A DNA stretch of 64,000 bases from Pisaster brevispinus (Eukaryota; Echinodermata; Asteroidea; Forcipulatida; Asteriidae): positions 1,617,001 to 1,681,000 of the forward strand of contig JAMKCF010000008.1 of assembly GCA_023634235.1 (NCBI GenBank), in the 5' to 3' direction. The position numbers and the translations under genes are program-made. Below, piece after piece: positions 14,701 to 62,690 of this stretch (its first letter is position 1; each line of letters opens with the position of its first letter). The notes beneath the pieces are model-generated. The model was not told where the DNA came from, searched no databases, and saw only the letters and a list, made by a program, of their open reading frames with translations.

Positions 14701-17700
14701 ATGAAAATGACAATTTCAGTGTTTGATTTTTCTGGATTTTTCTTTTCCGGAAAAACCGAAAGGCCCGGAGAGAAACCATCATGGCACAGGAGAAAACCAA
14801 TGCACAACTCTACTCGTGGCCCTAGCTGGAATTTGAACAAGGGTCACAGTGGTCCTTTAAGCACTAGCCACCAATATGTTAGGCAACAGTCCGAGGTGGG
14901 ATTCGAACTGGGATCCACGGAGGTGAATGAGGAAGGACAAGGTACCATTTATTTGCCAATCTTATTATGGACTCTCTCTGTTCCTACCTCCATGTTATGA
15001 GCCCAGGCCTGGCTCTGCAGTTCTTCTCCCTTTTCCTCAAGCTCCCGTTGCACCCCTAACACTTCATCCCTGTACTCCTCCAGGCTGGCTTGCAATGACT
15101 GACATCGATGCCTCATGTCCTCCAGCTCGTTAGTCACCATGTTCAGGGATCCTTCCTTCAGCAGAATGGTTGCACGAAGGTCCTGGACGGTGCTGACCAT
15201 GCCAGCGAGGGCATCCTGCATTGGGAAAAAAATGATGGATTTTAATTTTAAGAATATCCCACTTCAACTTCAACTTTGGTTGTCTTTTGTGTATAGCAAA
15301 GTTGCTGTTTTGTTTGCGCCAGGAGTGGCATCCTTGACAGATATGGAGCACTAAAAATGTTCAATATTATTATTATTATTATTATGCATTGATTTCTATG
15401 TTTGAAGGGCTGACGCCTTTTTGCAGAGACAAAGAGGGGTTGGTTTGGAGGTACATAACCAAATCCTCCAAGATCAGATGAGACAATAAGGATTTTGGAA
15501 GAATTGGAACTGTTAGGGTTAATTAACAAACCTTGTCCTCAGCAGCTCTCTTGTTGAGACTTGAAATCATAGCTGCTGCTCGACCAGACTCTTCTTTTAA
15601 CTTGATTAGTTCAGAATCCTGTGGATATTACACAAATTAAAACAATAACATGAACAGTTTTATGATTAGAATTAGAATTAGAATTGTTATTAATGTCTTC
15701 TTACTCGTTTGCCCTGCTTGGTTTTGTAATTTCTTCTTGCTTTTTTACAGGTTTCTGTTTGTAAAGCACCTTAAAGGGGAAAACTATCATTTATGTTTTC
15801 TTTATCCACGAATCATTTAATGAATACTTCAGTTAGCAGAAATCTACTTACCTTTTCACGACAAGCTATCTGCAGGTCACTGCTCTCATTTTGTAGACGC
15901 TCCATTACCTCCAGTGTTTCTAGCAATTCTCGTTTGGTATCAGAGCCTTCTCTTAGATCAGCCATTAATTTGGAGTTCTTCTGGAATTCTGCGTCCAGTT
16001 TCTCCATGAGCGACTGCAAAAGAAAAATATTTCCGAAGGAGAGAGTTAGATTACAAGCCACGTCTGAGTTATAAACCTTACTGACCGCTACCGATCTTGA
16101 GTTTCAGTCTTTGTTGAGCTCTCATGAGTAATGACTCATCCATCTTGAACTTTGTACCAGAGAAGATTAAGATGCAAGTAATTGTTTATCGAGTCAAAAA
16201 CACTTTCCTAGAGTTTGAGTCATGGTCTACATTCAATCTTTTCTACATCATCATGAGTCATCATGAGTCCTGAGTCATCATCATGAGTACTGAGTCATCC
16301 TATTCTCAGGTGTACCTGCATCTCGTCCTCCATCTGCTGATGCTTCTTCCTCTCATCTTTAATGACCGTCTCCAACTCCTCCTGGCGTTGCTCCTTGAAG
16401 TCCACCTCGGCTTGCAGCGTGCCACAAGCATCCTGAAGTTCCAGTTTCTCTTCGGTGATTTTCTCAATCTCCCTCGCCCTGTTGGAAAGATCCATCTCTA
16501 TGCCAAGGAGCTGAAATACCAAAATAAGATGAAAGTTCAGAAAGACTATTCAAAGTTGACTCTTTTACTCTTTTACTACACAATGGAATCAAAGTGAATC
16601 TTAGTCCCTTAAACTCGTCGATAGCCCTATGCATTAAAGTTAAGCTTCAAAACCCTCGCCACACAGAGCATTTTTTTACAGGCATCTTGGAGGCAACCCA
16701 CTGCACTGCAAGGAACACTTCAGAAACACAAGGGGCATTCTTCTAACAGAATCAATCTTATAACCCAAATAAAATGATGTGAACATTAAAACTTTGTTTC
16801 TTCTTCTTGGAGATTTGCTGGAAATGGTTGCCTGTAAATTGCCTCGTGTGACACGGCCCCTTAGCTTCATAAAACTCCATCTATGGAATACCTTAGCTTC
16901 GATGGAGGCAAAATCTCGGTCTCGTTCCATGTTCTGAATCTGAAGCTGTTTCTGTTTCTCATCCGTCACACGATCCGCCGACTGCAGCATGATCTTCATG
17001 TCTTCAGCCTCACTCTTAGAAACTAAACGACAAGAACAATTTGGGAATTATTGTAGACTTCTGTCATTCTTGCCCATATCTGAACACTTGGACCCATTGA
17101 AATAATTTTGCATAATTTCTTTTCCTTCATACATTAAGGCAAGGTATGTGGGAACCAACAGTTTTTTCTTTGTTCACTAAAACATTTAATTAAAATTTGC
17201 CCATTTAGTTTCCCTTGTGGTGTATTACTTGATCCATGTACTGCCGCTTCCCAGGTTGTATCGTAAACTTGGGTGTGGTCCCTGGCTACACGGCAGATGA
17301 CGGTTGAATGGCTTCTGACTGGCACCCCAAGATACTAAAAAAATAGGGAGACCGCCAAAATGGGGCTAGACAGCTCAGTTGATAGATTGCCGGCATGTTA
17401 ATCCGGAGGTCACAGGTTCAAGTCCCGCTCTAGTCCATTTTGTTTTGTTCACCCCAAAAATTGAATTATAATTTACCCACCAGATTCCCTTGTAGTTTAT
17501 TACTTAATATTTTGAAACATTTCTAACAAATTGTTAGTTTAAACTATGGTTCTTCATAAAACCTCAAATACAACGTGAATCAACAAAAGGAACAACCAGA
17601 ACATGCTGGTTGCTATAAACCTGTCTGACTTACTGCAATAATCTTTTTGCAATTCTTGGAGCTTAGCTGACAACTCTGCAACCTGATCTTTAATACTAGT

Positions 17701-20700
17701 TTTCTCCTTTTGCTCAGACTCAAGAAGCTGCAAAACAAAAACAGATAAAGCAGAAACAGTTATTTGTTTCCATCTGCACTGGTGAACTGTTTCCAGACAG
17801 ACATATATTTGCCCAAAGTATCCAACACTTATCTCCTCGATCTTTGCATGAATGGGTCAGGGATTAACTTCATGGGATTAAAGGGATTTATTGCTTAAAA
17901 CTCTCTGTGTCACCATCGCGCTTACACCATCAGACTGTTTCCAACAGTTCGTTTCATAATATTAAGTTATATTTTGAGGGTGAACATAATCCATTTCAAA
18001 TTTCTCAACCATCAGATAAGCACTTTTTTTAGACTCAATAAAACAAATTCCAAAATGCCATTTGAAGTGTTGCTGACCAACTGAAGCAGAAATTGTCTGC
18101 AGATGGATCGCCACCATGGCCGACTTTTTGTCCATAACGATCAGGGAGATATTTAGACCTACATTCAACATTGTACATTCCACAGTCAGGGAGATTTTCA
18201 AATGTGTTGATCAGAACATGGAAAGATTGGTTTATTTTCAGGGAACTTTCTGCAGAATCAGGGAGAGTTGGCAGCTCTGCTTGAGGCAATTCACAGGCAA
18301 CCAGTTCCAGGCAATCTCCAAAAAGTAAACACAGTCAAATTTAACTTTCTCACATAATTAACCTGGGGGTTTTAAAACAATTGTCATAAAAATACCCCCT
18401 GTGTTGCTGAAGTGTTCCTTTTGCATGCGGTGCAGCTGGTTGCCACAAAGTTGACTGTAAACATTGCCCGTTGTGACTTTCCCTTAATAGACACCCCACA
18501 TGGTTCCTCTGAGTGATCTCATACCTGATTTCTCTGCTCTAGTTCATGCTCCAGCAGCGTCATCGTCTGTTTCAGCTTCAAACTCCCACACTCCTCATCC
18601 TCAAGACGCTGTACAAGACTTGAGTTCTCTCTCTGTAAAGAATACAGATGATGAGAAGGAGAAAGAAGATATTAAACTGAAATCCAGTAGAATTCAAACC
18701 AATGATGACCCTTACACCATGTTCAGCATCTTATTGTTTCATCAGGAGGACTTGGAAAGGAGTGTTCAGTGCTCATCACAAATCAATGTATGAGGGTAAA
18801 ACACCAATGGTCAAGTTTGATTGCTTTTGCTTCTTTGTTTAGGGAACTCAGCAAAAGATATAAATGCTAAGCTGGCAAAAGCCAATCTCTCTCGTACACA
18901 CATTGGTTTAACGAATTGCACTGTTAGACTGTTAGACCACAATACTAGTCATTGTGAAATCAGCGGTTAGCATGGCCGGATTCACTGTCACTTTACGGCA
19001 ATTTTACAGAGTCTATACCTCTCAGATATTTGCAATAATGCTCACGACGATTTCACTGCAAATTCACGGTGCTTCAGAGACTGCACTTTTCTCAAAGAGT
19101 AACAGTACATCATTCAATTACTGAACTAATTTGATTTTAACACATCCCTAACCTAATGCCCCGGGTGCAATCAACTGATCAAGACCCAACATAGAAACAC
19201 TCTCATGGCCAGTTGGTGATGAATATAGAATGACCAACAGCAAAAGATAGGGCTAGCACCATTGGCCTACGTTGTATCTATGTACATGTGTACATGTAGG
19301 CCCGAGCCTCACTGCCAAACATTAAGTAGGTTTATCCACAGGCGCGGTGTGCGGCAGACAATGTTCAGTGTTCCATAAATTTATGTGGATGGTGTCTGGA
19401 CCAGAAGTGACTTTAAAAATTTGAACCTTTAAAGGCTCTCTTTTATGTCACACAAAGCAATTTACAGGCAACCAGTACTCCAAGAAGAAAATTCATTCAC
19501 ATTACAGTTTTCTCCTTATTTTCTTGGGGATTGTGAGATAGAAGAATGTCTCTTGTGCTGCCGAAGTGCTCCTTGAGCATGCATGGGATTGGTTGCCTCC
19601 AAGTTGCCTGGAAAATTGTTCTGTGTGACAAGGCCTTTATACTCTATATCTATACGTTGGGAGTAATGTCTAAACCCAAACATATTGTCAGATTTTACAT
19701 CCCGTCACATCACAACATAACAGCTAAGAATCAGGAGGCCCAGGAAAAGAAGGAGTCAAATCAGTAAAGATCAAAGTCCTGCCCTACCTGCAGTTTTCTG
19801 ACTTCGTCTGTCAGCGCCTCGTTGCATTGCTCTATCATGTGTTCAGGTATCTCCTCGTCTACGATACCCTCAACACCCCTGAGGGGTGAGGGGCTGTCAT
19901 CATCCTCCTCAAGGCGGCAGGGTTGGAGTGGAGTGCTGTCTACCTTGGGCACTGTCACCACCCGATTACGCAGAGTGTAAGCGGCCTTCTTGGGTGTAGT
20001 TATGGTCTATGGACAACAATTTATCAGGTGTTGAGAGAATAACTTTGGTGCAAAAGGACTTTTGATAAGAAGGGAACAAAAGAGAGTCGACAAGGTCTTA
20101 AACGCACATTTAAAACTGACAGGCTGACAGAGTCATGGCCGTGCAATAAAAGACCAAGCCGAAGGCCAGGTCCTTCATTGCATGGCCTTGACCCTGCAAG
20201 GTTTTAAACAAGAGCTTCAGACAGAGTGACAACTCTTTCATTCTCATTCCTAAATATCTTTTTGTTAAAAACATCCAAAAACCTTTAAAAGTTGAGAGCA
20301 CCGTGGCAAACCCCTTCTCTTATTGATAAGTGTACTGGGTACTTTTACATGCATTACACAACACACGGGACCTATGGCTTTACGTCCCATCCAAAGAACG
20401 AAGCAGTATTAAATAGTAAAGAATCTTGCTTAAGGACACAAGTGTCAAAATTGGGACTCGAACCCACACTCTGCTTCTTAGAAATACAGAGCTTGAGTCC
20501 AGTGCGATTGACCCCTCGGCCACAACACACCATAATCAAGGATTTGATTTTCTTGGACCGGCTTTTTTAAAGCACAATTTACAATTTTTGTTGAAACCAG
20601 CATAAATCCTGAGAAATGACAGCACCTTAATAAGGAAAGTTTTGTGAACTTGTTTGGCTCATGTATAACCTGTGAATTCTCTTAATTTCTTACCATGATG

Positions 20701-23700
20701 GTCTGCATGTGCAGATTATTCATGGTGTCTCTTTCAATCTTATTCTTGACTTTCATCGCTTCCAGGGCGTTGTCAAGCTCGTTGACGGACTTCTTGTAGG
20801 AGGCTACCTCTGCCTCTAGTTTCAACTGAGTCTTGCGGGCAACCTCTGCCTGTTCAAGGAGCTCCTGCCTGGCCTGTTCAAGGAAGATGTGAGAAGCAAT
20901 TTATCCCAGGAAATTACAACACAAGAAGAGAGCCATGAAAAACTATTTTGAATCTAAAAGCTTAGCTGTAGATGACAGTCTTACTACTTTTCTGACTTGT
21001 ATCTGACAGGGAACCAGAGTCACTGCTGACCAAAAGGTCTGAAACTAGGTGCCAAAGTGTAGGAGGTGTGCTGAAATGATGGAATTTTCCGCCTTTCGGT
21101 TTAACTCTGGGAAAAGTTGATTTGAAGGAGATTTTGGGAAAAAATTTCCTCAGTGCTAGAGAAGTAGACCAAAGAGCGAAATTTCTTTAAATAGGATGAA
21201 AATATCAGCAAATGTTATTCACCAGGCAGACACAAAACGCTGAATTCACTTAAAACTCCTCATCCTTAATCTGAGTGGGATCTAATTTTCAGTAATAATA
21301 AAGCATTGTTCTCTTTGACAACGAGTTGATGTCCATGGACTTTGTGTCAGGATTTCCCTTGAATCTCAAGAATAAAAAAAACTCATATCAGAAACAAATA
21401 TGGAACTGTTATGTAATTGTTTTCATTTTATCAACCGACTCACTGAATCTCTCTCGGCCTGTAGCTGTTTAGACTGTGCCTTGTACTTATCAAATGTTGA
21501 CAACACAGCGATGTGCTGGTCCCCGTGCTGAGACGGTGTCCGTGATGGGGACAGGCAGATGCTCATTCTTCTGTCGCCTCCTGCAAGTGCACAAAGCAAA
21601 ATGTATTCAAGCCTGGCTCAACATTAGAAAATTCCTGCTTAGCAAAATTCCAAGAAAATCAGCCCAAAAAACAAAAAGGATGACTTGGATGGTAAGTTTA
21701 TTTCTGCTTTAAAGGTAGGGTAATGGAATGTTTGTTGTCAACGTAATGCTGATTCACATGTATAGGCAACATTATCAAGAAAGATACAATAAAAGTCACA
21801 TGTAAAAGTTTCAGCAAAAAACTGTCACAGTATTTCACATGACCGTCTTAGCGTCCATGTCTTAGCAACCACGTTTGCAAGGTGACAGCAGGTACCAACC
21901 ACATCTCCGAAAATCTGAGAAACGATTTATGCATGAATCGTTTCTCAAATTCAAATGTTTTGGGGTGAAAACATTTTCTAAACCATTATTACTTCAAAGG
22001 GAATTAGTTTGTACTATCACCAGCTGCAGAGCTTCTCACCACGTTAAGTTTTTATGGTCATTAATTTTTGGAGTACTTACCAATCTATGACCCTAACTTT
22101 AAAGCAACTTTCCTTGGTGAATGGCAGGAATTTTGGGTAAATATCAAAACGCTCCATTTACAACACTGCTGAATAGTTTTACTTATTGCTTACTGGATAG
22201 GTTTTAGTTTCAGTGACCTCAGTAAGGGCGCCAGTTGAGCTTGTGACGCCACTTGCAAGGAGTCTACTTTTGCAACCGATACACTGCCATGGTTTTGCTG
22301 AACAATGACTTCCTCAAGCAAACTTCTCTGTTAACAGCTTTGTAAAATCAGAGCCCTAATTCAAAATAGCTTTATTTAGCACAATAAAATTGTGCTTACC
22401 AGAAAAAGGTTACCAGTCAAAACACCATTCCACATGTATCATCTGTGACTGGTATCCTGCTCATTTTTGCTTAGCAGACAATTTTCAAGCACCCTTGCTG
22501 CTTAAGCAGCTCTATAAAATTGGGCCCAGATCCTGTGTGCATGTTTCTTACCTTCCAGGTTGGCCATCAGCTCCCTGAAGGTTTTCTCCAGTTGCTGAAC
22601 ACGCTCGTTATCGGAGGCGATGCTGGCACGCACCGTCTGCAGCGCCAGCAGCTTCTTGTTCTCGCTGCGTAGATTGTGGTTTTCCATGGCGTACTTGGTG
22701 ACGGTTGGGTTGTGGGCCAGTTGATCTTTCAGGGCTTCAATCTCACCTTTCAAATTATTCTAAGAAGGAAACGGAATTTGATCACAGTCAGTTCATACCA
22801 CAGCCTAGAGCAAGGGATGTAATCGTCTACCATAATGAAGGAAACTGATAAATACCGACCAGTGAAAAAGGTGGTGGACTGGTGGAATATTGTTGTCGAA
22901 ATGAAACAATGATTAATAGAAGTAAAGACAACAAACAACTTTATATTTGGCAACGGGAATTACAGTTCTCTTTTGAACTATTTTGCAAGGAAGCCCTCTT
23001 TGTTCACTATGAGTCAGCCGTAAGCCACAGCTGATAATCAGCCTTGGCATGCTGGACTCTCAAATTTAACTTGGTGCTGGAGAAACAATTACGACAGCCT
23101 ACTGATCTCTCATAATCCCAAGGTTTGTCCGACAAAGGATTGACAGTCTGGAATTATGGATTACACAACATATCCAGGTAAAGAGTGTTTTGAACAGTGT
23201 TTCCAGTGCCTTTTGTCCCCGTCTGTACTAGGCCAATGAAGCATGGCACCATCAGTGCTTGTATGGTGCACGCTATACAAAGAGCCTTCCAAGTGTGTGA
23301 ACACGTCCTCTGCTCTTGAACTCATCCTACGCTGTTTGGGTTGAAAAATCATAAATGTTTACACGTCGTTAAGAAGTTAAAAAGGCAGCCAAAAAACTAA
23401 AAGATGTCAACAAGAAACATTTCCAAGTCAGTCCACTCTTACCATGATCTGACTTTGAGCAGATTCCTCAGGCTGATTCTTGGACTTCTGGAGATGCGAG
23501 ATGGTGTTCTCCCTGAAGCGGAGAATCATCTTGGTTGACTGTATTGATTGCTCCTTCTTGTTGCAAAGATCCTCTTGCCTGGTGATCTTCTCCAGTAGAA
23601 CCTAACCGTACAAGAATTGAGACAGATGTGGAAATACAGGCTAAGCAGTTGTGTGTTTAATAATATCAAAACATATTGCTTTGAAACAGTCAACCTTTCT

Positions 23701-26700
23701 AGCCTGGTGATCTTCTTAAGAAGAACCCAATCATACAAGAAGGAGCCCTATGTGAAAGTACAGACTGAGCAATTATTCAAAAATATCAAAGGTATTATTG
23801 CAGGTTGTGAAAAGTTAACCCTCACTTAGGCTCCTATATTAATCAGGCAGAAACATAAATACACAAAATGAGACCAATGTAAAGGTACAGGCTAAGCAAG
23901 TGTGAAAAAACCTGGCTGTTACCACCTGCATAACACATACAGTTTAAACTACTTAGATTCATAACAAGTTGTTTTACAATTAAAAAACAGAGAAGCTGCT
24001 CTTTATTTTGACAAGATCTCTTCTAGCCTGGCAATGTTCTCAAGGAAGACCTAATCACAACATATTATGACTGAAAGGCGGATTCAGGCTACCCATCTGT
24101 CCCCAAAAAATCAAGTCCAGAGTTTAATTGAAGGGACTTATTTAGCAGGCTCTGAAGATTCTTGTAAAAAAAAAAAAAAGAGATTGTGAAAGCTTCTGAG
24201 CTCACCTTTTTCTCGTTTTCTACTTTCTCCCTGAGATACATGGTGTCCAGAAAGTAGTTTTTCCATTTCTTCTCGTTATTGGAACACCCTGAAAGGAGAC
24301 TATTCGGGGTTGTCATGCTGGTTGGTGTCATCGCCCCTTTTGAAGGAAAGAAACATCAGATAGAAAAGATAAATCAGAAGGTTTGCAACATCTGCATGAA
24401 GCAGACGAGGACAAATTCAGTTTGGAGTTTTGTTGAAGTCCTAGTATTTGAGCAGGAACGGAATGAGCAATTTAGTTGAAAAGAGGGTGATCAGCTCCTT
24501 GTACTAAAAGAAGATGAAGCATTCTTTCTGCAAAGTGCAAAAGCTAAGTGAATTTTCTTGCTCCACAATTTGAAAACATTTGCATTCACTTTCATGTGTG
24601 AAGTATGAACTGGGCCTCACAGTGTCCTGCTAGGACAGTCCAAGAGGTCCAGCTGGCTAAGACAATGCTTCCCTAAGCTACATGAAGGCCACTGCCTGCA
24701 CAGAATGTTCCTCACCTGGCGACAAATTTAAATTCCAGACAAATTACAATAATGGAACAAATCTTTGAATTACATCTTGGATAAAGGTCTAGGGGAAACT
24801 CTGAAAGGGGCAACAAGGCCAAGGCCAGGGCAATGGAGGTCATGGCCTTCACAGCCTCTGTGTAATTCCACTGAGACCTGCCTTGGCATATGGATAGGCG
24901 ACAAAGCTGCTAGACTAGTCAAACAGCTGGCTAGTCACTAAAAAGCTAAGTGCAAAATCTCGTCTTTTAAGTTGTGATAGCTTGAAATGATGGATTTATG
25001 GATTGGAGGTCAGTGAAGCTTTTGAAAGAGGGGTGAGTAATGGAAAGCTGCTTTAGCCTTAGAGATTAGTTCAGCTTTGAGACAGATGAGGATTACCTGG
25101 GTTGTTGATGTCCACAGGCACGCCCCCTTGTCTGACCTGCAGTAGTTGGTCTCTCAGTCGTTTAATCTCTGCTTGAAGGTGGGCTGTGTTGCCTTGGGTA
25201 TCCTCATTGACAACAGCCTAAAAACAACAACAGGATGTTAATTAATAAACAAGTTGTAGACGAGAAACAACGGACAACTTTTTAATGAGGAATATGATCC
25301 GAATAGCCTTCAATGTCAGCTGGATGCGGAAAGTGGCCAATGGACAATGATACGGTGACCTCCCCAAGTTGGCCAATAAGATAGCAGGGCAACAGCTGCA
25401 ACTTGCCAGAAAATGTCTGCAACACCCAGAGAATTGCCTACCAGCCAATTCATCCATCCGGGACCCAACCCATGGGAAGATGAACCCTGGGCGTCATTCA
25501 CAAACCCTGGTCCTGACCCTGATGGAGGACAGTGGCACCATGACTGCTGATGAACTCAAGACACTGATGTAGCACATCAGTCATCATGACTGATGCAAGC
25601 CCAATCTGAAGCCAATCATTGATGATGATGACTAACATTCCAGAAAGTATCTATTACATTTTTAGCCTAATTAACTCCGCCCTCAATGCATCCACCAATC
25701 ATAACCACTTAAAGCGCCCCACCCCACTCCAACAAAAGTGTGGGACATAAAAACCCAACTAAAATGCAAAAAAGCTGCTGTAAGTTGTATTGCTGTGTTC
25801 AGCAGATTGTGTTGTGCAGTACTCGGACCCAAGTTTAGTTTGTGCTCCTTACATGAAACACCTTGATAAGGCAGACGCTTTGGTGGGGAGGGCTTAATGG
25901 GCAAGTTCATTTCAAGCAAGTAGCATTCTTTGCAGAAATAAATGAAATTGACACTGTTATGTATACTTTTAAAGGTTACCTTATTTTTAATCATCTTAGC
26001 TCTCCTGGCGAAGTTCAGAGTAGATAATGTTTCCCCGAAACACCTTCAAAAATGAAATAAAATAAACTTCTGTCAGTCAAAAATATTAGCTCAAATACCT
26101 ATGATGCAAAATTCAATGCAAGGATATAAATAGACAGATTTCAAACACCTTTTACAGGCCTATTTGGCACATGGTCACACAGCAACAACCTACATGACCT
26201 CCTGCTGAATCAAAAAAGGGTACCAGAGTAAAACTACATTGTTCTATCATATTTACCGAAGTTGGGATATACTTTTTATTCCTTAATACTCTCCAAATTG
26301 GAAATTAAATTACCCAAATCACTTGAACTTAAACAAACTTTCCCATTTGGAACCTTACTCTCCTAAAGGGGTGAGTAATGTACCCAATCAGGGTATATCC
26401 AGTGACACTTGATCAAGGTATACTCACTTAGCACCAGGATGCACATTAGCAATGATACACGTCTTAGCATTACCACCCAAGGAATCCTGTCAACAAAATA
26501 AATAAAATAAAACATTGAAATAGTAAAATTCATAATGATTATATAGAATTTAAAACTTTGCAAGGTGAGATTTTGACATCCTGAGCTGACGGCAAGCTGA
26601 CTGGCATTGTGGTAACCGACTCATGGGGCAAAGCTGAGGGGAAGACAGAGAACTAGCTATGTCAGTGTCCTCAGGGAGGGACACTGGTGCGGTGACCACG

Positions 26701-29700
26701 ACAAAGCTGGCTGCCTGCATAGAGAATGGAGGAGATTGGAGTTGCCGTTAGATGTCCCACTTGCAGGCGACAAGGTGAGTATTTACAGCTAAACAGGTTT
26801 TTTTGTATGCTCCACGATGTGTTAGCTAGAGGGATGTCTGGGCGTGTTCTAGACATCATAACTCTATTATGGACTCTGTACTTGATCTTTTGTGATCCTG
26901 CTTACTCCTGAAGTTGCACCTAAAAATAAAGCCGAGGCTACTACTAGAGGTGTCACTAGAATCATAGTTTGACAAAAAGGCGTGGGCTAAGTTTAAGACT
27001 CACCCTTAGTAAGAAGCTGAGCTTGGAATCCCGGTAAGGGACATGCCTCGTCTTGCCGTGACTGATGTCCACCAGAGCAGTAATGACATGACCTAGGGTC
27101 AAGAGAGACTTGTTGATGCTTCCTGCCTCTTTCAACCTCAGGCCAGACGTCTTGGTGTCTTTCTGTCTCTCGCTCCCTGCCAAGTCCACCAGATTGAGCT
27201 GGGAGACGCGAATGTTGGACACACCAGCTTTCTTCTCCTGAGGAAATAAATATTCACAAGGTTATGAATAATTATTAATAATGATTGATGAATATGCAAT
27301 AGAAATAGAGGAAGGTGGAGTTCAATCAAGCTCTCCCATCTGGAGTGAATTCAGGAATGTCTGCAATTAGAATTTTCAGACAGTTTCCCCGAGGTCATCC
27401 TATGAACGGGTGAGTCATTGCCAACAAAAAGATCTGAAACTAAGATCTAAATTTTAGGAGGTACGCTGAAATGATGACAATCCCACCTTTTGGTAACCCC
27501 TGGAGTTATAGATTTCAAGGAGCTTCTGGGAACAGTATCCTCAGAGCTAGAGGAGTAGATCAGAGAGCAGGATTTCTTGATATCTAAAGAAAATAACAGC
27601 TATGTTTTTCACCAGTCAGACATACAAAGGTCTGAATTCAGATAAAAGTCTGACATTTCTCATCCCTGTAGTAATATTATCAGGATGATGGCTTTCTGTT
27701 AATACCTTTGTCTGAATGGAGAAGGTGAACACAGCGTGACTTCGGCTGCTCTCACGGTTCATTGAGGTAGATGCTACACGCCTATTCAACCAGCCGGATG
27801 ACAGCACCTGCACGCACACACAAAAACACAAACCACAACTCTCCGTAACTGTTATGAACAAATCTTGCAGACAATTATATTTGAGTTATAAGAGTTGAGC
27901 TAATTGACCTTCATTATGGTGCAGTTTTTTGTTTCAAAATCAATGTGTGGATGGCAACTTCATCTTTTTAAAGAAACTTTAATGGCAAAGGGAGACCAAC
28001 AAAAAGTCCTAAAATTTGAAAAAACAATAACCTCATAGGCATCACTTGGAGTGGTGACGACTTTCTCAATCAGACCATCAACGAAGACTCCACGCTTGAA
28101 GTTTTCTCTGAGATGAAGGCCAGTGGAGGCTGGGTCCAGGAGGTCAAATATCTGCTCATTGTAAATTTCCAGGAAGGAAACTCTGCACATACTTTCAAAG
28201 CGTTCTCCTTGCTGCAGACAAGAACAAAATCAAGAGAAATAGTTCATAATTTGAACCCAAAACAAGCCGTCACAGAGAAACATTGATGAAGAAATAAAAA
28301 AACTCAAATACTCTTATGCTTAACACAAGTCAATTTTTCTTTGTTCACACCAAAATTAATTAATCATTTACTCATTCAGTTTCCCATGTAGTTTATTACT
28401 TGATATTTGAAATAAAAAAGTCACATCTCCATAAGGTGATCCCCCTGCTGCTGCCTCCTAGGTTGTATCGTAAATTTGGGTGTGATCCCTGGCTATATAA
28501 GGCAGTCACAGGTTGAATGGCTTCTGACTGGCACCCCCAAACAAAGACATTGACAAAGTAGGGAGACCACCAACATTAGGACTAGATAGCTCAGTTGGTA
28601 GAGCACCGGCACGTTAATCCGGAGGTCACAGGTTCACTCAAGTCAATTTTTCTTTGTTCAACCCAAATTACAGTTTACAGGAGACTTGCAGAATGCATCT
28701 TGAGCAGGGTTACAGTTAACGTAGTGTAGCACTATCTGAATTTTTCTTGAGGGAAAAGCAAACCTAGGAAAAGAACATGAGCAGAAATGACATGGATAAC
28801 TAGGCTAAAGTACCTTTTCTCTCTCCCGATTGACGAGGTTGAACAGATACTCAAAGCTTCTTGGGATGACGCCTCGTAGCTCACGGTGGAACGTATCTGT
28901 ATCCTCCGATGGACCTATCAAATAAAAACTTTATTTTATGAGGTACATCGAGTAGGGTAAAGCACATACATCTGTCGTCTCACAAACAGTTGTTTTTAAT
29001 TATGTTTAGTCAGAGACAGGTATCAGCTCTCCTACTCTTGGCAATATTTGCCAGTGAGTTGACCAGCCATTTGAGGCCATTTGAATGTGTGTGTACTGTG
29101 TAGATGCATTTACCACATGATTATCATGATGCAGGCTGACACAGTTCATCTACCATACAAAACCACAGTAGATGATATTGACTGGTTAGACAGTAGGAGG
29201 GTTGACTGTACAATCTGTAGATGCATTCACCTCATAGACCATTGCAGGCTGGCATAGCTCATCTTTCCTTCAAAACCGCAGTGGATGATTGTGAATGGTC
29301 AGACAGTAGGAGGGTTAAAACATGAATGACAGTGTCATGAACAGAAACAAGGAACATTCCTTCCAACAGTCCAGCTTTGCATAAATTAAGACAATAGTGG
29401 TCCAAGTCCTCCAGAATCCTTTTCAGGAAGTTGTCTGACTTTGTAGGATCTGGTATAATGTAAGGCAAAGCACCATATGCTTATAACTAAAACAACCTTA
29501 GTCAAAGCAATCTTATCCAAGTGCAAACATTTGGGAGTTGGGTTACCAGAGTGAAGTGCTTTGGAAGATTCAGGGTTAGGGTTAAATAACTTTCTTTCTT
29601 CAGGAACTACTTACCAATCATAGTAAATGTCTTCCCAGATCCTGTCTGGCCACTAAAATAGGAAAAACAAATCCCAAAACTCCATGTTAACTTTAATGAC

Positions 29701-32700
29701 ATACACTGTATTTGAAACAAATATTTGACAAAGAAGAAGTGAAATATGGGGAATGAAGAGTTTCCTAGCCAAAGTATGATTTATTTTGCAAGGGCAATGG
29801 ACTTTATCCCAGGTAACGGGCACCTCTATGTGGGAAGTGTGATTTTCTGCTGGATCATTTCAAACGACTAGCGCCAATATGGTTGCCCCCTTCGCCAGTA
29901 TGAAGTATAGAAGTCATGCTGCTTCTATCCACAATCGGCAACTTTATAAAGACAATTATTGTCACTCTTGAGTATAAATAAGGACCTGTGAATGTTGAGA
30001 TGTATTGGTTCAGTGAGGTGGTGGTACACTCCTTGTGTAGCTGAGAAGTTACCGTTATTAAGAAGCAGCATTTGGATGAATTTTAATGATGATCATATTT
30101 GACACTTACTAAGCGAATATGGTGGAGTTATAACCAGCCACACAGCTCTCAATTGTCCTCTTACCAACTGCTGCAAAAACTGCTTCCTAATTAAAAAACA
30201 GAAAAACAAAAGTGATAAGATAATCAGGGATCAGATTGGCTCAGTGGTTTCTTTCCCTGCCTTTCATCTCTCTGTGGACCCTGGTTCGAATCCCACCTCA
30301 GACTGAAGCCTTACATATGGGTTGGGCTTTCAGTCACTACCTGATTGCGTGGGTTTTTCTCTTTGGGGTATTCCTCCCGCGTCTGAAACCGAATAAATCT
30401 TCTTGTTTTCTGTTCTTCCTGTTATTAGTGCTAATTGTGTCCTTAAGCAAGACATTTAACCATTGTTGCTTCATCCTTCAGATGGGACATAAAGCCTTAG
30501 GTTTCATATGTTATTTACCTGTATTGTACGTAAAAGAACCCAGTTACACTTATCGCTAAGAGAAGGAGTTTGCCGCAGTGTTTCTGCAGGTGGCTGCTGA
30601 ATGTGTCGCAGCTCCTTGTACACCCTTATAAGGTGCTACATAAATCGGTCTCATAATTTAAAAAACTCAAAAACCCGCCTTAAATTGTTTCTGTTTGAAG
30701 TGCCTTGCATGCCTTATTGGTAGATACTCGGCTGTATAAGACTTTATATTATATTATACCTGTGTGGTGTTGATATCAGCTACATGATCAAACGTGAAGA
30801 CTTTGGGCTCGGGTTTGCACGGTAGGATAACCATATCTGGTGGCTGGACAGTCAGAATCTGGCTGGAGTCCAGACCATTGTCCTGATCAGGTGGACGGAC
30901 TCGGAGGTATACCTTAATTGAATCCCCATCGCTGAATAGAAAAGGCAAGACAATGATACAATTACCCATATCTCCAGTTTGTTGTTGTTGTTTTCTTTGT
31001 TTTCTTTCTTTTTTGGGGGGTGGGGGTGGTTAATTTGTTTTTGAAAAAGTGACTTTTCATTCAGCATTTGTAGGCCTGGAATTTCATTTTCAAGACAAGG
31101 TCATTTATTAATATTTTGCAAAGGGCGCTACTGTTGGAAAAGTATATGAGAATCTTTTGAAGACCAAGAAGAACAGGTCAACAGAGGCTATTGCCCATGT
31201 AATTCCAGGCCTGTCTGAGAGTACTCCAAGTAAACATTTCAGGAAATATGCGTAGAAATGTTAAAATAAATATTTATTAAAGAAAAGATTTGCTGATTGT
31301 CGTCAAGGCTAATTATTCCACTTTTAAACAGACTGAACATTTTGAGATGATCTCATTCTTACCCTTCATTCTTGTTGTCTTCAATAGATCAGAGCAAAGC
31401 GGAAAACATGAAACAAACAAACAAACAAGTATAAAGAAGCTGATCAAAAAGGTGTAAAATATAGCGTAATCATCCCTGGTGTCTTTTTGGCTTTTTATCT
31501 AAAAAAATTAAGAATATTCTTTTTTTTAAGTTATTATATTTAACTCCTCCTATGCTCTAGTCCTAGACCGAGTATTAACTGGATGGGGCGCTGTAGTGTA
31601 TGTAATATGCACTCCTCCCTTCTTAAAAATGTTGACTTCAAATTTGATTTCAACCATGATGATCAACATTTTCAAGAACAAAAAGTATTTTGAAAATGTT
31701 GATGGTTAAAGGGGAGTACAGCGTCTCATTCACATTTTCTTCCTCTAATTGTAGCTCTACCTACTCAGGTCAGTACTCTCTTGTCTCTAAGTCTAACTTC
31801 AGTCTTGACTTGAGTTGAGTCTAACTATTAAAGGATTTTTTAAATTAGAAATAAAGTCAGAAATTGCCTTACCAAAAAAGGTTTTAATTTAATTATCATC
31901 ATCAAACGTACCGGTTAAAAAATATCCACTATACTACTGCACTCACGGACATATCCAAAATAACGATTAAATAAGTGTTCAGTTTTACTGGACTGCACCT
32001 TTTTTGACTTTAAGTCTTTATTAATATTATTAGCCTAACTAATTTAGTTTTATTTTAAAAATATTTTTTGATATATCGATAAAAATAAACTAATAATACA
32101 GTCATTTGACCAGTTCGGGATCACTTTTTGAATTCACATTGTTTTTGGTTGCAATCTCTTTGACATTTTAAACAAAAAAGTTTATCAGTTTACCTAAACA
32201 TGTTATAAAACTCACCAAGTATCCACTGACAAAAAAAGATTAGTACTTTTGAAGAGGCTTTGAGAAAAGTATTGTCACCTGTTTGACCAGTTCAGGATCA
32301 GTTGATTCTATTCTGAATCAGTAGCTTGCCCTCTATTGCAAACCAATACTCCCATTCATAAAACTGTCTCTCAAGGACACAAACTTCACAAGTGTGTTGG
32401 CATGGACATGGACTTCCTTTCTCAGCGCAAAAATCCAGCAACAAAAACACAAAACAACAGCAAAGGCAAATGAAAAGGTGAAGCACGCCTAAAAGCAACA
32501 TTGACCCAAATATCTATTCTTACAGTCGCAATTTCCTCCTCCAAGTTTCATTTTCTCACAAAAAAACAATATTCCTACAAGAATTTGTTGAAGAAATGTA
32601 TCTTAAAAGCAACAAATAAACTTTCGACTGCAGCAGTAAGATTTTACCTCAATGAGTGCGGCACCATTTGACGCAATGAGAGATGCTGAGTAGTGAGTGA

Positions 32701-33407
32701 TCCCGAACTGGTCAAGGGTACGATGCCCCCCAAAAGACGATTTCGGTAATTTCGTCTCCTCAAAAAAACAAGACGACTGCTCAGTATTTACCTGAAATAT
32801 TTTTTACACATTCTAAGCATTTAACATAAATGTTATTCGCCCTGGCGTTCCAATTTTAAAGGTGAGAAGTTTTAACAGCGTTTTTCAACCAACATTTTTT
32901 TTTAAAATAATGATCAATATCGCAGACAAACTTCAGGAAAATGGCCATAATTTATTTGTCAATGATGTTTGGCACCCTATTTTGGGTTTAATGGTTTATT
33001 GGATGTTATTCTTCATATGTATCAACAGAAATTGGTAATGTGAGAAGTAATTTAATTATGTGGTTATTGCAAAGTTGAAGTGATCCCGAACTGGTCAATG
33101 ATCCCGAACTGGTCAAATGACTGTATTAATAATAATTAAAGACGGTTATAAATAACAAGTTTTTCCAAACTTGGGAGTAAATTGCTGTATCCAACCTAAT
33201 TTACAAACACTAAAAAGGGGGTAATTTAAGTTTTTAGATACATTTTCCAATTTGGGGCGAAATGGTAAACACCATGTACGGGAAATACGATCATAGACGG
33301 GAAGACGGGGCGAAAATTAACAATACGACTACGACGAGGAATGTCATTCAACGAACTCGAAAATGACCGTCGGCATAAAATGCATAAAACTCACCTGAAG
33401 ACGACAT
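8792..33407 (-). CDS. KIF15: Kinesin-like protein KIF15 (kinesin-12)
   Basis: Plus-end-directed mitotic motor that cross-links spindle microtubules and backs up kinesin-5. Coding exons in order: 33395-33407, 31363-31378, 30760-30931, 30110-30186, 29615-29652, 28814-28914, 28032-28211, 27706-27807, 27004-27237, 26428-26486, 25980-26043, 25097-25217, 24206-24336, 23443-23601, 22552-22759, 21444-21580, 20694-20873, 19788-20006, 18525-18632, 17634-17727, 16892-17022, 16316-16510, 15852-16013, 15532-15618, 14988-15215, 14196-14312, 13593-13761, 13110-13186, 12421-12530, 11167-11292, 10942-11013, 10422-10515, 9957-10088, 8792-8968. They join in frame to about 1429 residues (human 1388). The N-terminal motor shows P-loop GQTGSGKT (94-101), NRESSRSH (216-223) and DLAGSE (251-256); the rest is coiled-coil stalk ending in the conserved [11 protein letters not shown] block. 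The exon 27 donor near 13593 is weak and uncertain. The start codon lies in a 13-nt exon whose phase fits the next. Confidence 0.95.
9628..9815. mobile_element. Foldback MITE, CAATTTCATAGAGCTGCTT family
   Basis: Inverted ends (ACAATTTCATAGAGCTGCTT on the left; a GCTTGTTCTACGAAATTGGG-type end on the right) enclose a non-coding core with CTGCTAAGCA and a pair of inverted ATACCAGCCA / TTGGCTGGGA blocks. It lies in the last KIF15 intron. At least eight related copies occur in this window. Confidence 0.7.
10660..10790 (-). mobile_element. Partial tRNA(Asn)-like SINE, tail portion
   Basis: The reverse complement carries the family's tail (TTTTTCTTTGTTCAACCC, then TTTACCCAGTCAGTTTCCCTTGTGG). The tRNA-like head is largely lost. 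It sits in a KIF15 intron. Confidence 0.6.
12670..12900 (+). mobile_element. tRNA(Asn)-like SINE copy
   Basis: The head reads TAGATAGCTCAGTTGGTAGAGC (A box) followed by an ACAGGTTCAACTTC-type B box. It is preceded by the conserved GGCTTCTGACTAGCACCCCC stretch and followed by TTTTTCTTTGTTCAACCC and the CCCTTGTGGTTTAGTACTT tail. Mutations in the arms argue against a working tRNA. Confidence 0.75.
13450..13590. mobile_element. Foldback MITE, truncated copy abutting KIF15 exon 27
   Basis: The left end (CCCAATTTCATAGAGCTGCC) and core match the copy at 9628-9815. The right end is missing and the repeat stops within a few bases of the exon 27 donor at 13593, so the element may supply or have altered the flanking splice region. 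Confidence 0.65.
13795..14070 (-). mobile_element. SINE tail fragment with (ATT)n end
   Basis: Reverse complement matches the 3' part of the SINE at 54905-55262: TTCACTTATGAGGCATTCTTGGTTTCATTACCAG followed by a TAATAATAA run (near 13853-13872). The tRNA-like head is not visible here. Confidence 0.6.
14770..14945 (-). mobile_element. Possible tRNA-derived SINE fragment
   Basis: On the minus strand a B-box-like TCCCAGTTCGAATCCCAC (near 14900) is followed by family-like sequence. The A box is unclear, so this is a weak call. Confidence 0.35.
16229..16300. repeat. Degenerate TCATGAG / TGAGTCATCA repeat
   Basis: A run of TCATCATGAGTCATCATGAGTC-like sequence within a KIF15 intron. It contains several exact TGAGTCA heptamers, with others nearby at 16131 (inverse) and 16215. 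Confidence 0.7.
16667..16865 (-). mobile_element. Foldback MITE, GGCAACCAG/TTGCCT family, copy 1
   Basis: Inverse orientation of the copies at 18285-18480 and 19425-19650. Shared blocks are TTGGAGGCAACC, GCAAGGAACACTTC, GGTTGCCTGTAAATTGCC and GTGTGACACGGCCC. It ends about 25 bp from KIF15 exon 21. Confidence 0.6.
17180..17520 (+). mobile_element. tRNA(Asn)-like SINE copy
   Basis: Nearly full unit: 5' segment with TAGTTTCCCTTGTGG and CCAGGTTGTATCGTAAACTT, then GGCTTCTGACTGGCACCCC, tRNA-like head (17366-17440; anticodon loop around TGTTAAT, GTT-like; B box GGTTCAAGTCC) and tail TTGTTTTGTTCACCCC. The A box is mutated (GTTGATAGATTGC). Confidence 0.8.
18285..18480 (+). mobile_element. Foldback MITE, GGCAACCAG/TTGCCT family, copy 2
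   Basis: Shares CACAGGCAACCAGTTCCAGG, TTGCTGAAGTGTTCC and GGTTGCCACAAAGTTG-type blocks with copies at 16667-16865 and 19425-19650. Terminal parts are degraded. Confidence 0.55.
19425..19650 (+). mobile_element. Foldback MITE, GGCAACCAG/TTGCCT family, copy 3
   Basis: Best-preserved copy. Inverted ends are AAAGGC...TGTCACACAAAGCAATTT-ACAGGCAACCA and TGGTTGCC...AAATTGTTCTGTGTGACAAGGCCTTT. There is no coding capacity. It lies in a KIF15 intron. Confidence 0.7.
20296..20535 (-). mobile_element. tRNA(Leu/Ser)-like SINE copy
   Basis: On the minus strand GTGGCCGAGGGGTCAATCGC (type-II tRNA A box) and GGGTTCGAGTCCCA (B box) are followed by GTGTCCTTAAGCAAGA, GATGGGACGTAAAGCC and GTAAAAGTACCCAGTACAC. 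The same downstream body appears at 30225-30650 with a different head, implying body sharing between SINE families. Confidence 0.8.
21020..21290 (+). repeat. Dispersed ~250-bp repeat, copy 1 (GCTGAAATGATGG family)
   Basis: Aligns over its length with 27415-27670 and 36715-36930 in the same orientation. Shared blocks: AAGGTCTGAAACTA, GCTGAAATGATGG, CCTTT-GGT--AACTCTGG, TCCTCAGTGCTAGAGAAGTAGA and TTAAAACTCCTCATCC-type end. It has no open frame. Confidence 0.65.
21712..22105 (+). mobile_element. MITE with TTTAAAGGTAGGGT ends, full copy
   Basis: Inverted ends CTTTAAAGGTAGGGT and ACCCTAACTTTAAAG enclose ~390 bp of non-coding DNA with a central palindrome (TGAGAAACGATT..AATCGTTTCTCA, near 21917-21948). 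A TTTAAA abuts each end. Related copies: 42604-42787 (internally deleted) and 51232-51640 (inverse). Confidence 0.75.
22335..22530. mobile_element. Foldback MITE, CAATTTCATAGAGCTGCTT family
   Basis: Ends with CTTAAGCAGCTCTATAAAATTGGGCC and contains TTGTGCTTACCAGAAAAAGG and ACTGGTATCCTGCTCATTTT. Inverse of the left-end orientation. It stops about 20 bp from KIF15 exon 15. Confidence 0.75.
25309..25640 (+). pseudogene. LINE ORF2 C-terminal fragment and 3' tail
   Basis: The plus frame 25369-25572 encodes a peptide in which [19 protein letters not shown] and [17 protein letters not shown] stand where RT C-terminal regions of LINE elements carry a FAGHC-RHPE, WEPTHG and VD-L-KDTGL series. A stop follows, then a short 3' tail with GATGATGATGAC. 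The 5' remainder is missing, as in 5'-truncated insertions. It lies in the KIF15 intron between exons 11 and 12, antisense to the gene. Confidence 0.65.
27415..27670 (+). repeat. Dispersed ~250-bp repeat, copy 2
   Basis: Same family as 21020-21290 and 36715-36930; copies 2 and 3 share long identical blocks such as CCACCTTTTGGTAACCCCTG and GGGAACAGTATCCTCAG. Its end approaches KIF15 exon 8 within about 35 bp. Confidence 0.7.
28335..28680 (+). mobile_element. tRNA(Asn)-like SINE copy
   Basis: Full unit with the 5' segment (CAGTTTCCCATGTAGTTTATT, TAGGTTGTATCGTAAATTTG), GGCTTCTGACTGGCACCCCC, well-kept A box AGCTCAGTTGGTAGAGC, GTT-like anticodon loop and a damaged B box (GGTTCACTCAAGTC). It lies in a KIF15 intron. 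Confidence 0.8.
29035..29325 (+). repeat. Dispersed repeat, CACAGTGGATGAT-TGAATGGTCAGACAGTA family
   Basis: Two successive units (about 29095-29200 and 29205-29325) each contain GTAGATGCATT-ACC-CAT, TGCAGGCTG-CATAG and ACC-CAGT-GATGAT-TTGA-TGGT-AGACAGTAGGAGGGTT. Other copies occur at 44025-44180 (inverse) and 59480-59930. Confidence 0.6.
30225..30655 (+). mobile_element. tRNA-derived SINE, long form
   Basis: Head with GGCTCAGTGGTTTC and GGTTCGAATCCCACC, followed by GGGTTTTTCTCTTTGGGG and then the shared body GTGTCCTTAAGCAAGACATTTAACC, GATGGGACATAAAGCC, and an end CCTTATAAGGTGCTACATAAAT. The copies at 39412-39600 and 49240-49445 keep only the first half. It is intronic in KIF15. Confidence 0.8.
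31363..31378 (-). CDS. KIF15: KIF15 16-nt microexon 2
   Basis: This tiny exon is flanked by AG (after CTATTGA) and GTAAGA. Joined to exons 1 and 3 it yields the N terminus MSSSDNKNEGDGDSIKV, whose NEGD-IKV part matches the human KIF15 N terminus (NEGDAIKV). Both junction phases (1 and 2) fit only if this microexon is included. The human N terminus before the motor is longer. Confidence 0.8.
32099..33123. mobile_element. Tc1/mariner-like non-autonomous transposon with IR/DR ends
   Basis: A 1025-bp element in KIF15 intron 1 begins CAGTCATTTGACC and ends with its perfect reverse complement (25 bp identical). It is flanked by TA on both sides (32097-32098, 33124-33125), the target and CAGT terminus typical of Tc1/mariner. 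The 16-bp box TGATCCCGAACTGGTC, or its complement, recurs at 32108-32123, 32285-32300 (one mismatch), 32698-32713, 33081-33096 and 33099-33114, resembling reiterated transposase-binding sites of IR/DR elements. There is no transposase frame. It ends about 270 bp from KIF15 exon 1. Confidence 0.85.
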
Positions 33408-33870
33408 TCTTGATTCTATAAGATCCTATTTAAGGCCTGTTCCGATGTGCACTGACAATCTAAAAACCCAGCAAAGTTGTAAATACCCCTAAACTGGAGA
33501 ACAATCGTTGAACTTGGAGAGGTGTTTATTTTGAATTTTGGCGCTGATCAAAATGGCGACTGGTTGACCTTTGACATTTTGTTTCAGGCTTTTTTAGCCA
33601 GTTTAAATAACACAATGATACAAGTTAAATTTCATATTTTTTGATAAAATAAAAATAAAAATTTAATTTCATGTCAATAAATACTTGTAAATAGATACAT
33701 GTTCTATTTTAAATTTAAAAATTATTTTAAATATACACTTTTTATCGTTCGGCAAATGACCTTTGACATGTTGAACCTCATTAGAACGTTGTATGTCGTC
33801 TGCAACAAAAATTTGTGACTTTTGTTTACGATTATATACGTTTTAAACAAGCCAAATTAAGAAATTAAAC
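33408..33870. promoter_or_regulatory. Divergent KIF15 / KIAA1143 promoter
   Basis: 463 bp separate the two start codons, which face away from each other, so both 5' UTRs and the core promoters must fit here. Visible motifs: TTTGGCGC (33537-33544), an exact E2F-type site; TTTGAA (33530-33535), a CHR-type hexamer four bases away from the GGCGC; and AAATGGCGAC (33551-33560), resembling a YY1/initiator element. There is no TATA box at a suitable place for either gene that I can defend. The E2F/CHR pairing would fit the G2/M expression known for KIF15; the spacing is suggestive but the order differs from the textbook CDE-CHR layout when read toward KIAA1143. Confidence 0.65.
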
Positions 33871-35091
33871 ATGTCTGGCCGTGGTCGCCAATCCATAGAC
33901 TATGTCAAACCCCGTGAACCAAGCTTTTTGACGAAATTTAAGCAGCAAGCAGGTTACAAAGAAGGGCCAAACGTTGATACAAAGGTAATTTCATGATTTG
34001 GGTTGGTAAGCTAATCTGTACTTCTAAAATAAGTTATACTTGTGTAGTCGAGTGATCACAAGCCTTGTGTTGTAATTTTAGTGATGTAGATAAGAAAACA
34101 AGTTTTCTCACTTGTGACATGGCTAGATTTCCTGCAGTATCTCGTCAGTGCCTGTGTTTAGGTGTTTTACCCATTTAATTATAAACAACTTTTTTGATAA
34201 TCTTTTTTCTAATTTTTTGTTTATATTATAACATTGATATTGATAACAATTTGTCATGTTGTACTCATTTGTAATCAATTCTGCATGAATTTTCTTGAGC
34301 AGGTATTTATTCATATTGGAGTCTGGTTTTATACTTTTTAAGGGAAAGTTTTTGCTATAAAGTACTCACCCTGTACGTAGTCGTAGTTGTCTTGTTTTTA
34401 TTTATTTATATTTGCATGTAGTTTTTAAAAAAGAAATTCTCTTGTTTTGCCTTGGATTTGCCTTTTTTTACCATTTTAAAATTTTTGAATTTTATGTGCA
34501 CAATTTGATGCAATTTTGTCTCTGGCAACAAGTTTGAGTTTTAGTAAAACCATGAATAAATTAATAATAATAAGGCCTTTGAATGTCTGACTATTTAATT
34601 GTGTATCCATTGCTACATTGTAGAGAGAAGTTCCTACATTTGATGAAGATGATGACCGACCAGAAGAAGATGATGAGAAGCCAACTGTCGTTGTACTCCG
34701 TGAGGGAGATTTGACCCAAGAGGAAGTCGATAAACACACTCAAGATAAAGGGACATCTGGTAAGGTTTTTGGTTGCATTATTTCTCTCCCTTGGTTCAAT
34801 GTATTTGCAGATGTTTGAATTTATGAGAGAAAATAAAGACATTCCACTCTGACTAAGTTTCTATCTTTGTTCTCTCAAGATGACAACACATCAACATCAG
34901 CTGGAAAAATCCTCTTCAAGAAACCTGTTAAGCGACCTACCGAGGAAAGTACAACATCCGATCTCAATGTGACCTCCAGCAAGAAAAAGAAAACCAGCCG
35001 AGACAAGAAGAAAGGATCAGGAGGCGAGAGGAAAGAAGTGAAGAACAAATCTTTGCTATCATTCGGTGACGAGGAGGAAGAAGGGACCTGA
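33871..35091 (+). CDS. KIAA1143: KIAA1143 homologue (DUF4604-type protein), function unknown
   Basis: Three coding exons, 33871-33984, 34624-34759 and 34880-35091, give 153 residues (human 154). Exon 1 encodes the conserved start with YVKPREPSFLTKFKQQAGYK-EGP-VDTK, matching the human [23 protein letters not shown] block. Exon 2 encodes an acidic stretch followed by VVVLREGDLTQEEV (human VVVLKKGDLSVEEV). Exon 3 carries KILFKKPVKRP, a lysine-rich tract (SSKKKK) and the C-terminal LLSFGDEEEE. All junctions have consensus GT/AG and keep frame. Charge and composition suggest a small, largely disordered protein; the lysine clusters could act as a nuclear signal (inference). No biochemical function is established for the family. 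It is divergent from KIF15 and shares its 5' region. Confidence 0.95.
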
Positions 35092-62575: not shown

Positions 62576-62584
62576 TATGGGTGG

Positions 62585-62690
62585 GTAAGGACAAAAAGAA
62601 ATTGAGACAGAAAAAAAGAGTTAAAGAACAAAAGAAATAAAGAAAGAAAAAAAGAAAGAAACAAAGAAACAAAGAAATACATGTAAATAA
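62585..62690 (+). repeat. Purine-rich (AAAG/AAAC)n tract
   Basis: More than 80 bp of almost pure A/G on the plus strand, in the loop between inverted copies at 62450-62575 and 62768-62880. Confidence 0.75.

Follow-up and report, generated by a model that had tools for sequence, protein, structure and literature searches.

A divergent KIF15–KIAA1143 gene pair in a sea star with probably shared, ancient promoter DNA

Why should the gene for a mitotic kinesin, KIF15, lie head-to-head with KIAA1143 in a sea star, as we take the same two genes to do in human? The arrangement occurs in a 64,000-nucleotide stretch of the Pisaster brevispinus genome (contig JAMKCF010000008.1), referred to below as the window, for which a first-pass annotation had proposed an ancient bidirectional promoter kept by selection and a possible co-expression of the two genes. 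The gene names given there are confirmed by the complete models described below, and the two genes do form a close, divergent pair in an invertebrate host, here a sea star near Asterias. Our analysis suggests that KIF15 and KIAA1143 probably have an ancient promoter region in common, and favours separate control of the two genes from it over co-expression.

KIF15 lies on the minus strand (8792..33407) and is complete in our spliced model, in which 34 coding exons run from the ATG at 33407 to the end at 8792 with zero internal stops and are separated by 32 GT-AG introns and a single AT-AC intron (junction 13604/13200). The encoded protein has 1430 aa, close to the ~1400 aa expected of a motor plus coiled-coil protein, and its alignment with Asterias rubens KIF15 is gapless, with 1327 of the 1430 positions identical. 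The motor domain matches the four PDB chains of KIF15 at 524.6–533.4 bits and the next-best other kinesin at 269 bits (among the best 60 of 91 matches), which places it nearer KIF15 (kinesin-12) than other kinesins; within those matches, the gap between the scores led us to reject a paralogue. The first coding exon (33395..33407, minus strand) contributes MSSS and one additional base before a GTGAGT donor, and cannot be joined directly to the exon with which the motor domain begins (coding exon 3, 30760..30931, minus strand; bounded by splice sites, with 57/57 residues identical to Asterias by tblastn), as the two differ in frame. We considered exon 1 as an artefact for this reason and rejected the idea: a 16-nt microexon (coding exon 2, 31363..31378, minus strand), flanked by AG and GTAAGA, puts it in frame with the motor exon, and the tiny first exon of the first-pass annotation is therefore correct. 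The resulting N-terminus reads MSSSDNKNEG, compared to MPSLDNGNDG in Asterias, with the microexon accounting for DNKNEG (DNGNDG in Asterias), a match score reached by none of 1000 intron shuffles.

KIAA1143, on the plus strand, is likewise complete, with an ATG at 33871 and three exons encoding 153 aa: exon 1 at 33871..33984, identical to Asterias at 37 of 38 residues, and, from the gene model, exon 2 at 34624..34759 and exon 3, with the stop codon, at 34880..35091. The protein is 84% identical to that of A. rubens, and its residues 8–149 match the Pfam family DUF4604 (PF15377) at 90.3 bits (cut-off 28), making it a member of this family. Pfam still lists DUF4604 as a domain of unknown function; the sole match in a PDB search with the protein was weak (E 0.66), and a known structure was dropped. 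The gene models place the two ATGs 464 bp apart, as annotated initially, with 463 bases between them and the genes diverging, which is within the 1000 bp that defines a bidirectional pair, measured here between start codons. Around the pair, nine of ten flanking open stretches were without a match in a Pfam search for neighbouring genes and the tenth matched a TRAPPC8 domain below its cut-off; two of these stretches had no match in the PDB.

How widely are the two genes linked? Among the matches listed (the best 120 of 282, 120 of 7954 and 120 of 765, with a capped candidate set scored for the latter two), both genes were found in 26 species, paired by eye, and in 21 of these they fall on contigs of identical length; linkage is thus read from identical printed lengths in protein listings, and the same contig is not the same as adjacency. 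Most species that have both genes probably lie outside this comparison, which covers vertebrates, whose rows do not count as independent, and nine non-vertebrates, with no cnidarian; a hummingbird cluster pair of the same length but with different species names was left out of the 21. Six of the nine non-vertebrates have identical-length contigs among the matches listed, namely two sea stars, one sea cucumber, two hemichordates and one nemertean. The lengths differ in five of the 26 species in the same matches: in Mizuhopecten and Apostichopus, the genes are on separate scaffolds; the other three are B. lanceolatum, S. torazame and X. laevis, for which the listing may combine two assemblies or subgenomes. 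The contigs carrying both genes span 2.3 to 454 Mb, and among the matches listed, the locus tags are consecutive in each of the three species that show them for both genes (Xenopus tropicalis, Hymenochirus and Phrynocephalus). The idea of an ancient promoter kept by selection is in part supported: it agrees with the widespread linkage, but adjacency is seen in the window and the three tagged vertebrates, and at the scale of chromosomes old macrosynteny alone could hold two genes together.

The gap between the human genes, presumably of roughly 100 bp, is shorter than the 463 bp between the sea-star start codons. Human and sea star resemble each other otherwise: the sea-star genes adjoin, and human KIF15 and KIAA1143 share probe annotations in the excerpted literature, where the chromosome 3 methylation probes cg00702638 and cg07303143 (CpG island) and cg17546649 (island shore; TSS1500/gene body) are each annotated to both genes. 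In the available portions of the literature that names both genes, they appear together as a methylation-probe annotation and not as a promoter, and in that on KIF15 and 'bidirectional promoter' the phrase was met solely in a reference title concerning other genes. The sea-star pair resembles pairs of the HSP10–HSP60 type in being divergent and less than 1 kb apart; it differs from them in that we know of no joint function for the KIF15 and KIAA1143 proteins. HSP10–HSP60 is an example of conserved divergent pairs, less than 1 kb apart and kept across distant animals (PMC2871058, in part), and 66 human divergent pairs are described as retained in Drosophila in the excerpted text of a second study, whose non-vertebrate outgroups are Drosophila, C. 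elegans and yeast and whose main text, to the same extent, is silent on echinoderms (PMC12672016). KIF15 is unnamed in the available main text of either study.

The spacer between the start codons (33408..33870), a candidate divergent promoter, is AT-rich (GC 0.29), with a CpG observed/expected ratio of 1.02, compared to 0.45 for the whole window, a value equalled or exceeded in 52 of 1271 sliding windows; despite this ratio near 1, it differs from the human pair's setting in not being a mammalian-type island. Towards KIF15, a predicted CHR-type site, TTTGAA (33530..33535, plus strand), lies 123 bp upstream of the KIF15 ATG, with 1.06 such matches expected in the spacer from length alone and 1.2 for the general pattern TTYGAA. 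One base away is a predicted E2F-type site, TTTGGCGC (33537..33544, plus strand; 130 bp upstream of the same ATG), which is one of three TTTSSCGC matches across the 64 kb and alone among them in having a CHR within 20 bp. A YY1-like site, AAAATGGCG (33550..33558, plus strand), is one of two in the window. An E2F site within 20 bp of a CHR was seen in 0.2% of 5000 spacer shuffles and the YY1-like site in 0.42% of 5000, figures that are optimistic as the eleven motif patterns were scanned post hoc, with the sequence already seen. In the usual order, a CDE is followed, after four nucleotides, by a CHR that reads TTTGAA in the same direction. The KIF15 strand reads GCGCC-AAAA-TTCAAA, in which the spacing of four is kept and the CHR is reversed. 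The spacer is thus like CHR/E2F (DREAM-type) promoters in having the two predicted sites one base apart at 123–137 bp upstream of the KIF15 start codon, and unlike them in its CHR, reversed with respect to KIF15 transcription, and in having no CCAAT (NF-Y) box; a scan of the spacer also found no TATAAA. The 13-mer TGACCTTTGACAT, which we take to be nuclear-receptor DR1-like, occurs twice in the whole window, both times on the plus strand inside the spacer, at 33565..33577 and at 33757..33769, the second copy being 114 bp upstream of the KIAA1143 ATG. The copies are separated by an AT-rich linker (33578..33756; 13–25% GC in 60-bp steps) that contains a 14-nt palindrome, TTTTAAATTTAAAA, at 33707.

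We regard as evenly balanced the proposal that the 463-bp spacer is one compact promoter region, with a predicted E2F/CHR cell-cycle box at the KIF15 end and an always-on housekeeping promoter at the KIAA1143 end. One open-chromatin region would serve two core promoters, with E2F/DREAM-type complexes repressing KIF15 outside S/G2/M via the box at 33530–33544, and steady KIAA1143 transcription drawing on the second TGACCTTTGACAT copy together with the sequence around it; the AT-rich middle of the spacer could be a nucleosome-poor linker between them. Selection would act on the shared regulatory DNA rather than on any function that the proteins have in common. Since disrupting such a compact spacer would harm one promoter or the other, the pair was probably inherited from the deuterostome ancestor at least. 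An earlier origin, preceding the divergence of protostomes and deuterostomes (from nemertean to human), with an asymmetric mitotic/housekeeping promoter marked at both ends by the duplicated TGACCTTTGACAT, is a tentative and rather doubtful extension.

The same linkage could also result from passive retention, in which slow rearrangement (ancestral macrosynteny) and the rarity of breaks in short spacers would keep the genes together with no promoter shared. This is possible, if on balance doubtful: most of the linkage evidence is of the same-contig kind, and macrosynteny would suffice for the larger contigs, but the genes are immediate neighbours in the window and in the three tagged vertebrates, and single human probes are annotated to both, and they are therefore closer than a shared chromosome alone would give. 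The separate scaffolds of Mizuhopecten and Apostichopus indicate that some lineages may have lost the pairing, and would leave room for it to have formed twice, once in sea stars and once in vertebrates, between genes already on the same chromosome; two separate joins are, however, less simple, and the orientation is presumably the same as in human, making this very improbable.

The proposal that one bidirectional promoter drives both genes through the cell cycle, with KIAA1143 working with the mitotic kinesin, fits the position of the predicted E2F/CHR box in the common spacer, and divergent pairs are on average more co-expressed than other neighbours, according to the excerpted text of a study that validated co-expression, but not co-function, of paired genes (PMC3403606). 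The literature on the individual genes points elsewhere. One report includes human KIF15 in its set of 210 potential p53-p21-DREAM-CDE/CHR targets (PMC4705690, in part), a listing with which the predicted CHR and E2F sites at the KIF15 end of the spacer are in agreement. Its promoter is moderately bound by LIN9, B-MYB and FOXM1, its expression in that study being independent of MMB-FOXM1 notwithstanding this binding (PMC5355254, in part). KIAA1143, by contrast, is unnamed in the main texts (supplements aside) of the literature covered here on KIF15 with the DREAM complex, E2F and CHR, and in a liver-cancer table it has a value of 0.55 among genes whose expression resembles that of EEF1 subunits (PMC6997806, in part); its neighbours in its own column of that table are ZC3H15 and NUP37, so that the term 'housekeeping' refers here to one correlation list. 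The listing of KIF15 as a DREAM target, together with the absence of KIAA1143 there and its translation-factor-like expression, makes shared promoter DNA with separate control likelier than co-expression. We therefore consider the latter unlikely, and the suggestion of the first-pass annotation that KIAA1143 is co-expressed with KIF15 was not borne out.

Close divergent pairs are already known as an arrangement, to which the sea-star KIF15–KIAA1143 pair adds an example. The echinoderm and chordate lineages separated more than 500 million years ago; if the adjacency holds true across deuterostomes, promoter DNA common to a cell-cycle-regulated gene and a housekeeping-like one would be older than that split, and the locus would provide a natural test between pairs kept for co-expression and pairs kept by regulatory DNA that cannot be split. 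KIAA1143, whose domain has no assigned function, gains a comparative handle from this arrangement.

Our analysis showed that KIF15 (minus strand) and KIAA1143 (plus strand) diverge at close range, as the first-pass annotation had claimed, with 463 bases (33408..33870) between their start codons. The KIF15 start codon proposed there, at 33407, is also upheld: it opens an exon (33407–33395) that holds 13 coding bases and is followed by a good donor, GTGAGT, and a 16-base microexon (31378–31363, minus strand; flanks AG and GTAAGA) links it in frame to the motor exon. Joining exon 1 directly to the motor exon (30931) was rejected because the frames clash. The resulting N-terminus reads MSSS-DNKNEG-DGDSIKV, compared with MPSL-DNGNDG-DGDSIKV in Asterias and MSSVDNSNGSNGDSIKV in Patiria. 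The microexon was spotted before it was tested. When the 2463-bp intron was dinucleotide-shuffled 1000 times and each shuffle was searched identically to the real intron for candidate exons of 13, 16 or 19 nt, none equalled its score of 24 (best shuffle 20). Intron 1 also contains a 1,025-bp transposon-like element (32099–33123), about 270 bp from exon 1, which leaves the spacer untouched; its terminal inverted repeats have 33-nt arms that are 97% complementary, the flanking TA on each side included, and it holds five copies of TGACCAGTTCGGGATCA, one of them mismatched (shuffles give 0.02). We take it to resemble a non-autonomous element of the Tc1/mariner type.

The coding part of KIF15, modelled by splicing guided by the Asterias protein, comprises 34 exons (33407 to 8792, minus strand) with no internal stop, and encodes 1430 residues that align without gaps to Asterias KIF15 (1327/1430 identical, 92.8%). 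Against KIF15 structures its motor domain scores 524.6–533.4 bits, roughly double the figure for the top other kinesin (269 bits) among the best 60 of 91 matches. Thirty-two introns are GT-AG and one is AT-AC (13603–13201, minus strand), reading ATATCCTTT...CTCTTAC with TCCTTGAC just upstream of its 3' end; we presume it to be of the U12 type. A GT-AG choice here gave a protein length that disagreed with Asterias, whereas the AT-AC intron, between 13604 and 13200, agrees exactly. The octamer ATATCCTT occurs twice in the window, both times on the minus strand. Three plus-strand matches to the tRNA family of Rfam (17364–17436, 28580–28645 and 43522–43594; 29.6–37.1 bits), two of them inside KIF15 introns, are likely tRNA-derived SINEs.

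KIAA1143 has three coding exons (33871–33984, 34624–34759 and 34880–35091, plus strand) encoding 153 residues, and its best matches are from Asterias rubens (84% identity) and then Patiria miniata (67%). Together with the KIF15 comparison, these matches mark the window as sea-star DNA, presumably from a relative of Asterias. The Pfam family DUF4604 covers residues 8–149 (90.3 bits, cut-off 28), and when six invertebrate homologues are aligned, many of the invariant positions are grouped in an N-terminal EPxF..FK...GYKEGP block, with a second cluster in a C-terminal VKN..LLSF block. A second gene appears to converge on KIAA1143 from the minus strand. Its exon-like segment at 50363–50497 resembles the second Ig-like domain of TRAPPC8 at 16.8 bits, below the cut-off of 27, and those at 48594–48857 and 49536–49730, which we presume by resemblance to belong to the same gene, had no match in Pfam or PDB; TRAPPC8 may be taken as a lead only.

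As to conservation of the pair, linkage of the two genes is indicated in most of the species compared. Among the matches listed, KIF15 and KIAA1143 lie on contigs of identical length, exact to the base, in 21 of the 26 species listed with both (vertebrates 15/17, non-vertebrates 6/9), a proxy from protein listings for a shared chromosome or scaffold that does not equal adjacency. The six non-vertebrates with equal lengths are the echinoderms Asterias, Patiria and Holothuria, the hemichordates Ptychodera and Glandiceps, and the nemertean Lineus. The contigs differ in the other five species: Scyliorhinus torazame, Xenopus laevis, the sea cucumber Apostichopus (375,590 vs 1,139,463), the scallop Mizuhopecten (373,758 vs 924,342) and the amphioxus Branchiostoma lanceolatum (24.0 vs 24.2 Mb). 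The last is possibly a single chromosome in two assemblies, and the scallop and sea cucumber mismatches point to loss of the linkage or to breaks in the assemblies. Support for adjacency comes from locus tags, which are consecutive in all three species with both tags visible: Hymenochirus (GDO86_011585/011586), Phrynocephalus (JRQ81_018883/018884) and Xenopus tropicalis (XENTR_v10016296/016297). In human, chromosome 3 methylation probes that carry both gene annotations lie in a CpG island (two probes) or on the island's shore (one) (PMC4588865, PMC7080960, PMC7201762, PMC8006465). Taken together, these observations make it very likely that the linkage is at least as old as the echinoderm–chordate ancestor; the head-to-head arrangement is plausibly equally old, and Lineus hints at a still greater age for the linkage.

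The spacer has a GC content of 0.29 and a CpG observed/expected ratio of 1.02, compared with 0.45 for the whole window; since 52 of 1271 same-size sliding windows reach at least 1.016, this value is out of the ordinary, though not unique. At the KIF15 end, motif matches predict a CHR (TTTGAA, 33530), an E2F-type site (TTTGGCGC, 33537) and a YY1-like site (AAAATGGCG, 33550). TTTSSCGC has three copies in the 64 kb, and the spacer copy is the sole one within 20 bp of a CHR. In 5000 spacer shuffles, the E2F-plus-CHR pairing arose in 0.2%, the E2F match alone in 2.3% and the YY1-like site in 0.42%, figures that are generous because eleven patterns were scanned once the sequence had been read. The scan found neither CCAAT nor TATAAA in the spacer. 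Two copies of the 13-mer TGACCTTTGACAT (33565 and 33757), which has no further copy in the window, are separated by an AT-rich tract (13–25% GC); a direct repeat as long arises in 15 of 1000 shuffles, and we liken the 13-mer to a nuclear-receptor DR1 site.

The suggestion that the two genes may be co-expressed fared less well: all the evidence bearing on it is indirect, and it speaks against co-expression. KIF15 is among 210 potential p53-p21-DREAM-CDE/CHR targets (PMC4705690) and is also tabulated in PMC9090780; LIN9, B-MYB and FOXM1 are reported to bind its promoter moderately, despite which its expression in that study did not depend on them (PMC5355254). In the literature searched, KIAA1143 is not named in the main texts of papers treating KIF15 with the DREAM complex, E2F and CHR. 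It appears, at 0.55, in a liver-cancer table of genes with EEF1 complex subunit-like expression, with ZC3H15 and NUP37 as column neighbours and ribosomal-protein genes in other columns (PMC6997806).

We give about an even chance to the spacer being a compact divergent promoter with two dissimilar ends, a predicted cell-cycle promoter towards KIF15 and a predicted housekeeping promoter towards KIAA1143. The genes would then stay paired because the short spacer could not be split without damage to one of them. The main rival, passive retention through slow rearrangement, would account for the pairing by the rarity of breaks, and we consider it rather doubtful. The two-ended reading is similar to an argument made for bidirectional architecture, that co-expression may stem to a greater degree from shared elements than from shared function (PMC3403606). 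Our search of the literature on the gene pair and on bidirectional and head-to-head promoters, including sea urchin, found no account of KIF15–KIAA1143 as a conserved promoter, and the pair is therefore a newly documented case. As a well-documented new example of an already known divergent arrangement it is in principle unsurprising, and it merits a brief comparative study.

Elsewhere in the window, two 16-bp minisatellite arrays (5271–5460, 11.9 copies; 5660–5889, 14.4 copies) lie about 200 bp apart, their units, CTCCAACCAACTC and GAGTTGGTTGGAG, being mutual reverse complements. The CpG-richest part, 62400–63500, where the observed/expected ratio of 463-bp windows peaks at 1.72, includes a 42-bp tandem repeat (62881–63003) and is possibly the promoter of another gene.
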